Shown here: in pieces, positions 11,563 to 12,881 of the stretch
How positions within the stretch are numbered: the first letter of the stretch is position 1
How the letters are laid out: the number at the start of each line of letters is the position of its first letter
NCBI GenBank assembly: GCA_013373515.1
Contig: JABXHR010000017.1
Coordinates: 1 to 32,459 of the forward strand
Origin: Gammaproteobacteria bacterium
Lineage (GTDB): Bacteria > Pseudomonadota > Gammaproteobacteria > JABXHR01
DNA: 32,459 nt
Direction: 5' to 3'
Position numbers and translations under genes: made by a program
Notes under the pieces: generated by a model
What the model was told of the DNA's origin: nothing
The model's database searches: none
What the model saw: only the letters and a program-made list of their open reading frames with translations

Positions 11563-12231
11563 GTGTTAAAACGTCTATTTGTAAGCCTCTTCTTACTGGT
11601 TAGTGGCTTTGCCTATGCGGAGCTTCCGTCTGGTTTAGTCTCAATTTCTACCTCAGCCTCGACTGCTGTGGCTCCGGATGAATATGTTGCCTCGGTGTCT
11701 GTGCAACATATTGACCGAGTCGCGGCCGTGGCGGCTGATGAAGTCAACCGTGCCATGCAAAATGCGCAAGCCCTCGCCGCCCAGCGACAGATAGAACTGT
11801 ATTCCGGTGGTTACAACACGTACTTCGATCGCAAAAATAATCGCTTTGTGATGAGTGCCACCGCCACACTGGTGGCCGACGACAGCGCGCGACTTGCCGA
11901 ACTGATTGCCGAGCTGCAGAGCAGCATGAACTACAACGGCACTGCCGGACGCTTAAAGCCCGACACCCGTGCGGCGAGTGAGAATGATCTGATAGCAGAA
12001 GCCATTGCCAAATTCCATGACCGAGCGCGGTTGGTGGCCAACTCACTGGGCGGGAATAGCTACCGCATCTATGACCTAGATGTGCAAACCCAAGGCGAAC
12101 CACCTTACCGTCCGATGGCGATGATGCGTTCGAGTGTACAGGCCGAAAGCGTGGCCGCGCCGTCAATCGAGCTGGATGATGAGCAGGTTAGCGTTTCGGT
12201 GCGCGGGCGCATTGTGGTCGAGGGGCTTTAA
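11563..12231 (+). CDS. Periplasmic SIMPL-domain (DUF541) protein
   Basis: The 222-residue product has a signal peptide (MLKRLFVSLFLLVSGFAYA). The rest fits the SIMPL/DUF541 fold: ISTSASTAVAPDEYVASVSVQH near the mature N-terminus, a YNTYFDRKNN segment, and a C-terminal beta strand VSVSVRGRIVVEG. Bacterial members are periplasmic or outer-membrane associated and form oligomers; their role is mostly unknown, with reported links to oxidative stress. The start codon is GTG, 6 bases after the amidase stop, so the two are likely co-transcribed. The stop codon lies inside a palindrome that may end the transcript. Confidence 0.85.
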   Translation: MLKRLFVSLFLLVSGFAYAELPSGLVSISTSASTAVAPDEYVASVSVQHIDRVAAVAADEVNRAMQNAQALAAQRQIELYSGGYNTYFDRKNNRFVMSATATLVADDSARLAELIAELQSSMNYNGTAGRLKPDTRAASENDLIAEAIAKFHDRARLVANSLGGNSYRIYDLDVQTQGEPPYRPMAMMRSSVQAESVAAPSIELDDEQVSVSVRGRIVVEGL

Positions 12232-12238
12232 AGCCCCT
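12221..12238 (+). terminator. Palindrome across the stop of the SIMPL gene, possible terminator
   Basis: AGGGGCTTTAAAGCCCCT is a perfect 18-base palindrome containing the TAA stop codon, followed by TTT. It can fold as a 6-bp stem with a TTTAAA loop. The T-run is short, so termination is likely but not certain. Confidence 0.5.
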
Positions 12239-12240
12239 TT

Positions 12241-12408
12241 AGGGCACTTCTAAAAAAAACCTCGCAATGTCCCCTTGGGCGGGGCTTATAGCGCACTAGC
12301 GTTGTCGTAGCGCTAGATAAGGGAACAACCCTTATACATCGAGCTTCTCCTAGCCCAGCACGCTATAAGACTCCCGCGAAACACTCAAAGGGTTTTTAGA
12401 AGTGCCCT
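12241..12408. repeat. 168-base self-complementary element, MITE-like
   Basis: The ends are inverted repeats: AGGGCACTTCTAAAAA at 12241-12256 and its exact complement at 12393-12408. Further matches run inward, including CTTATAGCG at 12285-12293 against CGCTATAAG at 12361-12369. The centre is a perfect hairpin, ATAAGGG-AACAA-CCCTTAT (12317-12335). A side hairpin CTAGCG...CGCTAG is also present. The whole stretch therefore folds on itself around its midpoint, with no coding capacity. This resembles a miniature inverted-repeat transposable element or REP/ERIC-type repeat. I see no clear target-site duplication. The right end touches the stop codon of the Lrp gene. Confidence 0.7.
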
Positions 12409-12881
12409 CAAGACTGTAAGCTGATCTCACGGCTATGGTAAACCTCACGCAGCACGAGGCGGGTATTGGTACTGGCAATGCCCGGCAGTGACAGAATTGA
12501 GCGCGTGTACAAAAGCTCGAAGTCTTTGGCATCTCGATAGATCACGCGGATGACATAGTCGTATTCTCCAGACACCAGATAGACATCTTGTACCGCCGGT
12601 ATTGCAGCGGCTGCGAGCTCAAATTCGCGGAAGGCTTTTTCGTTTTGTTTCTCCAGCCGAATATTCACAAACGCCACGCCGTTAAGGCCGAGTTTGTCGC
12701 GATCTAGCTGCGCATGAAATCCCTGAATGATTCCGCTGTCGAACAATTGTTTAGTACGCCGCAAACAGGTGGAGGGTGCCAGTGACAGCTGCTCTGCCAG
12801 TTCATAATTACTGAGTCGTGCATCCTTCTGTAGTGCACTTAGGATTTTACGATCTGTGGAATCGATGTTTAATTGAGTCAT
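12408..12881 (-). CDS. Lrp/AsnC family transcriptional regulator
   Basis: The 157-residue protein has an N-terminal helix-turn-helix (IDSTDRKILSALQKDARLSNYELAEQ then LSLAPSTCLRRTKQL) and a C-terminal RAM/AsnC ligand domain (about 70-145, with VYLVSGEYDYVIRV). It lies divergent from alanine dehydrogenase with 122 bases between the starts. In several proteobacteria and actinobacteria an Lrp-type protein (AldR, BkdR and similar) senses amino acids and controls ald, so I infer it regulates ald, probably in response to alanine, and its own promoter. Its final residues and TGA stop codon border the palindromic element, so the element may serve as its 3' end. Confidence 0.92.
   Translation of the reverse strand: MTQLNIDSTDRKILSALQKDARLSNYELAEQLSLAPSTCLRRTKQLFDSGIIQGFHAQLDRDKLGLNGVAFVNIRLEKQNEKAFREFELAAAAIPAVQDVYLVSGEYDYVIRVIYRDAKDFELLYTRSILSLPGIASTNTRLVLREVYHSREISLQS

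Follow-up and report, generated by a model that had tools for sequence, protein, structure and literature searches.

The window analysed here is a stretch of 32,459 nucleotides from contig JABXHR010000017.1 of a gammaproteobacterial assembly (GCA_013373515.1). Within it, a SIMPL/DUF541 gene (11563–12231, plus strand; PF04402, E 7.7e-21) and a gene for an Lrp/AsnC-family regulator (12408–12881, minus strand; PF01037 and PF13404) converge on a segment in which the first-pass annotation had described a self-complementary, MITE-like stretch of 168 bases (12241–12408). This location is confirmed, and the stop codon of lrp (12408–12410, minus strand) directly adjoins the stretch. Its 16-bp ends, AGGGCACTTCTAAAAA (12241–12256) and TTTTTAGAAGTGCCCT (12393–12408), form the perfect inverted match that had been reported, which grows to 20 nt at 95% once flanking bases are counted. 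The central 7-bp hairpin with loop AACAA (ATAAGGG-AACAA-CCCTTAT, 12316–12334) is likewise present in the sequence. The 168 bases have a folding energy of -40.1 kcal/mol in DNA form and -69.9 in RNA form, far better than chance, with z = -6.48 in both cases and 0 of 200 shuffles equally good. The predicted shape is branched and does not correspond to a simple palindrome. A consensus scan of positions 12050–12600 returned neither an intrinsic terminator nor a sigma-70 promoter.

Comparison with sister copies sets the element proper at 12242–12407 (166 bp, ends GGGCACTTC), the outermost A/T of the 168-base stretch being a single additional complementary base. The left terminal inverted repeat (TIR), GGGCACTTCTAAAAA, occupies 12242–12256 on the plus strand and recurs on three copies elsewhere in the same genome (C244, C134, C225) and, with one mismatch, on a fourth (C137). 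The right TIR lies at 12393–12407 on the minus strand. Like a MITE, the copy is shorter than 500 bp, non-coding, and bounded by perfect TIRs of 15–16 bp. Its 4-bp flanks, TTTA and TCAA, hold no remaining target duplication, in agreement with the first-pass annotation. A search for the empty site recovered SIMPL relatives that are 29–40% identical and have no adjacent lrp.

The element is not confined to this locus. A search of its own assembly (3.65 Mb, 287 contigs) identified relatives on C244 (93%), C134 (94%), C109 (82%), C225 (80%), and C137, with E-values spanning 2.7e-59 to 1.1e-27. Several copies end at contig ends, as expected of repeats. The full-length relative, C244:22366-22631 (265 bp), makes the family clear when used as a query. 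Two families share a common core: family A, to which the window copy belongs (ends GGGCACTTCTAAAAA), and family B (ends GGGAACCTCCGAAyAAGTC). Family A flanks show no clean duplications, and family B members display perfect 4-bp duplications at three sites (TTAG/TTAG at C267, TTCG/TTCG at C238, and TTAA/TTAA at C243). Dispersed copies, TIRs, absence of coding sequence, and target duplications in the sister family together uphold the MITE-like character proposed for the locus, and the genome does not show the single, conserved copy that the first-pass annotation had named as counter-evidence. The family B ends, GGAACCTCCGAATAAGTC, resemble IS5-type ends, and both families are provisionally assigned to IS5 by end sequence and type of target duplication, not by a transposase found here. 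A search of the assembly for an insertion sequence with family A or family B ends, a check proposed in the first-pass annotation, found none.

Two further features of these repeats were recorded in the same genome. Family B copies (L041, L044, L045, L071) vary through additional paired segments at shared peripheral sites, from a minimal form in C109 to extended ones in C176, C267, and C238, much as helices vary among structured RNAs. The genome also holds a third family of small MITEs (G000:C113:11683-11840, L036), which has ends GGGCACCTCgAAAA and a TTTT/TTTT duplication; its interior resembles an alternative tip of the hairpin module described below, and a solo family B end lies about 200 bp away.

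Alignment with C244, C225, and C137 reveals that the window copy lacks approximately 100 nt at its left. In the sister copies, this segment is a long hairpin located between the direct repeats CCTCGC and TCTCGC, and the corresponding deletion junction in the window falls at 12257–12264. On this alignment, the window copy is an internally deleted, shortened derivative of a full family A element, a status that the first-pass annotation did not show. The junction is followed by a linker around TCCCCTTGGGCGGGGC (12270–12286); other members have a homologous linker, CUCCC-UYCG-GGGCGAG. Independent single-module forms occur at L114 and, in the same genome, at C243, where the other module was lost.

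The nature of the missing hairpin became apparent from other genomes. A BLAST search with the full C244 copy matched a part of about 55 nt in five genomes belonging to the same class, at loci that are themselves MITE-like with other ends, most of them holding the same imperfect hairpin twice in inverted orientation. An alignment of 15 such modules defines an imperfect hairpin of about 80 nt, in which an outer stem is followed by a conserved AAGGCG segment facing RACGC and then by a second stem capped with a conserved apex (GGsAAUGG...CCUU). The apex and the unpaired AAGGCG/CAACGC bases rank with the best-conserved columns of the alignment. Intact elements run from one TIR through a sense module, a short GC hairpin, and an inverted module to the other TIR. 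Adjacent modules are arranged plus-then-minus in 59 of 60 pairs, with a spacer of 23–24 nt in 51 of 59. Across 47 unique elements with two modules, core length is nearly always 182–187 nt, and the ends differ completely.

Covariation supports the predicted pairing. Double-sided changes affect 15 of the 16 pairs of the two main stems in the 15-module alignment, where the covariation score reaches 0.886; shuffling lowers it to 0.233, and sliding the partners to no more than 0.17. In an enlarged set of 65 distinct modules, 96.9% of cells are paired and covariation is 0.843 against 0.206. A covariance model, R1, was built without the window sequence. If the window element belongs to this group, its right-hand module should lie on the minus strand, and R1 does match that strand at 12366–12287 with 23.4 bits (E 7e-5 when only the window is searched), the next best position scoring 12.1 bits. 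The window copy keeps the right-hand inverted module only (12287–12366), with the AACAA hairpin as its apex. A right-core pattern, WTCTCCTAGCYCAGCACGC, had no match in 84,980 genomes, which argues that the window's own diverged module is lineage-specific.

Variation at the apex was observed in a further set of loci. L278, L280, L281, L279 (about 1501–1600), and L295:1150-1400 combine the AAGGCG/AACGC shell with other apical domains, namely GCGGAGTGTACT..AGTACATGAGC or GAGGAGAGAAxTTTG..AATGAACGACGAG. Such sequences suggest that module tips are interchangeable. A candidate AAGG-CCUU pseudoknot can also be drawn, in bases that hardly vary and thus lie outside the reach of covariation.

The module is widely distributed. 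At E<=1e-3, R1 has matches in 83 of the 274 Gammaproteobacteria genomes sampled (about 30%), often with more than 10 copies, and in many positive genomes every scored candidate is positive. Across the phylum, 62 of 398 genomes match at E<=1e-6, with at least one other class among them. A pattern search of named genomes returned at least 120 stretches, including matches in Thiotrichales, Thiohalomonas, Thiodiazotropha, Sedimenticola, Chromatiales, Thiobacillus, and others. Module-rich organisms in culture include Thiobacillus thioparus, Thiohalophilus, and Sedimenticola. By blastn, neither E. coli genomes nor phages gave a match, and plasmids yielded three weak ones. Separately, an unannotated member with ends GGGTCTGTTGACG lies on a conjugative plasmid of P. 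aeruginosa (L295; NZ_CP017294.1, about 8.6–8.8 kb), between genes for a CoA-transferase and an acyl-CoA dehydrogenase. Gene orientation around modules displays no clear preference. One contig (L082) mirrors itself almost perfectly on either side of a copy, an inverted duplication that is probably an assembly artefact.

The transposon ends that surround this core are diverse. Those of module-bearing MITEs include TAGTACTCTTTCAAGG, TAGTGTACTGCGTCACTC, and TACTAAGACAAACG, and L306 has IS5-like ends (GGAAGGTrCGAAyAAGTC). The complete genome G122 (G122:C1, L225-L247) harbors 22 near-identical copies, with 0–1 differences among those of equal length, and nearly all are bordered by TA on both sides; these flanks are of the IS630/mariner type. 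No insertion sequence with the same ends was found in this genome at up to 3 mismatches, and a five-copy IS630 element was rejected as the cognate one because its ends differ. The G122 copies point to recent spreading, driven by a transposase that has since been lost or is not a known one. In G196, an IS630-family element of 1,248 bp (L256:1367-2614) with a DDE_3 domain has 33-bp perfect ends, (C)TAGTACATCGACCAGTTTATATTGACGG, closely similar to the MITE ends TAGTACCTCGTCCAGTTTAAAATGACGG. The TA duplication (G122) and the ends shared with an IS630 element (L256) were observed in different families of the group. The L256 transposase is divided between two open frames (183 and 231 aa), which could reflect either programmed frameshifting or a broken gene. 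An autonomous element between the widely spaced modules at L114 and L128 was also considered and rejected, as these are separate MITEs with ordinary genes between them. The occurrence of TA-flanked, IS630-type ends and of IS5-like ends on the same core indicates one cargo with ends of different transposase families. That the core module is common to MITEs of other transposase families is likewise absent from the first-pass annotation.

The question arises whether the shared module is maintained as RNA, as single-stranded DNA, or without any function. With every module oriented in its sense direction, the stems hold 256 G-U pairs against 32 A-C mismatches, an approximate effect size given that R1 tolerates GU better than AC, which may inflate the asymmetry, and that the sequences are related. 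The TIRs of such elements give 45 to 30 (Fisher p 5e-8 for the contrast, optimistic for the same reasons), and among individual modules 55 hold more GU than AC, with 0 in the opposite direction. A process that treats both DNA strands alike should leave the two counts about equal; the module is therefore probably selected as RNA, or as strand-specific single-stranded DNA. RNA function is the simplest reading, from which we infer an RNA domain, although folding of one DNA strand would give the same signature. No known RNA family accounts for it: neither the element nor its relatives match Rfam at gathering level, and permissive E-values produced chance-level matches alone.

A module working as a strand-specific single-stranded DNA hairpin, in transposition or nucleoid binding after the REP/REPIN-RAYT fashion, would be expected to favor G-T over A-C in the same manner. 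The inverted pair of imperfect hairpins, the conserved unpaired bases, and the many copies per genome also fit such a role. However, DDE-type ends with TA or 4-bp duplications, together with one matching IS630 element, leave a transposase for single-stranded DNA unneeded, and we consider this explanation unlikely while still giving it real weight. Less credible is a functionless structure, in which complementarity is kept by template switching or hairpin repair and the sharing merely reflects descent from an old MITE. Palindromic MITEs are often self-complementary, and the TIRs of these elements are also well matched; yet hairpin repair is strand-symmetric, at odds with the difference between stems and TIRs, and unpaired and apical bases are strongly conserved as well; we hold this account to be improbable. 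The first-pass annotation had proposed a terminator for either gene or an RNA stem. The stem receives indirect support from the strand-specific covariation, whereas the terminator does not, given the empty consensus scan. An immobile local terminator or 3'-end structure of SIMPL or lrp would suit a site between convergent genes that adjoins the lrp stop codon, but copies beside other sequence in the same genome contradict it as an origin, and we regard it as very improbable. A co-opted 3'-end role for either gene is possible.

Several described repeats share individual traits with this group. MITEPsy1 of Pseudomonas syringae is a 100-nt element with IS5-type ends (GGAAGGTCTGAAAAAGCC) and a 4-nt duplication (CTAG or YTAA), non-autonomous and with movement shown in vivo (PMC3189936). 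It resembles the present family in its type of ends, 4-nt duplication, and non-autonomy, but differs, in a comparison by description and not by sequence, in having no reported paired structured module (PMC3189936). REPINs and BIMEs also consist of two imperfect inverted hairpins in many copies per genome, whereas the module hairpins are far larger and are bounded by DDE-type TIRs accompanied by TA or 4-bp duplications; a canonical member had no blastn match in E. coli genomes, which carry REP/BIME. MRSC-65-2, whose number points to the Thioalkalivibrio genome of the study reporting it as the place of first sighting, is structured, covarying, and present in many copies per genome, with a single long stem and a UYCCGG repeat (PMC11109978). 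Structure, covariation, and multicopy occurrence are thus alike, but the single long stem sets it apart (PMC11109978), and the UYCCGG repeat is found in 0 of 208 modules. QMITE2 of Coxiella burnetii and the Correia/NEMIS elements are also short, TIR-bounded, structured MITEs, often located at gene 3' ends, and some are transcribed (PMC5896051). By description, QMITE2 is distinguished by direct repeats of 7–11 nt, a GTAG REP, and the lack of a described paired module (PMC5896051). No description of the shared cargo was found in Rfam or in the main texts of open-licence papers, the 250 candidates of PMC11109978 lying in supplements. Searching papers for the module letters returned unrelated primers only.

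Taken together, the window element is best explained as a decayed, internally deleted IS5-type MITE with a putative cis-acting RNA cargo, a reading to which we assign a probability of about 0.7 on sequence evidence. As a decayed IS5-type MITE the copy is ordinary in kind, and its present-day mobility is unlikely. An IS5-family transposase acting in trans probably mobilised it via its GGGCACTTC... ends. Compensatory change preserves the module, whose sequence and surrounding transposon ends nevertheless turn over. Both modules face the centre of the element, so that transcription arriving from either flank would meet a sense module first, an anatomy that suggests a cis-acting role on read-through transcripts. 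In the window, a transcript from lrp alone would carry the sense module. Candidate roles include anti-termination or pausing of RNA polymerase and binding of a protein or RNase. More tentatively, and somewhat short of even odds, the module may be an undescribed cis-acting RNA domain, for instance one that modifies RNA polymerase or recruits a conserved RNA-binding protein, whose advantage lets the cargo pass between, or outlast, unrelated DDE ends (IS630-type, IS5-type, and others) across Pseudomonadota.

Bacterial MITEs are usually viewed as hollow elements whose identity lies in their ends. In this group it is the ends that are exchanged and the interior that is retained, with covariation resembling that of RNA, in about 30% of the Gammaproteobacteria genomes sampled. 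A structured cargo so widespread, and common to MITEs with unrelated ends, merits experimental work. If the module is a functional RNA, an abundant class is missing from Rfam, and the structured cargo of a gene-less transposon may soften insertion, aid its own movement, or serve the host.
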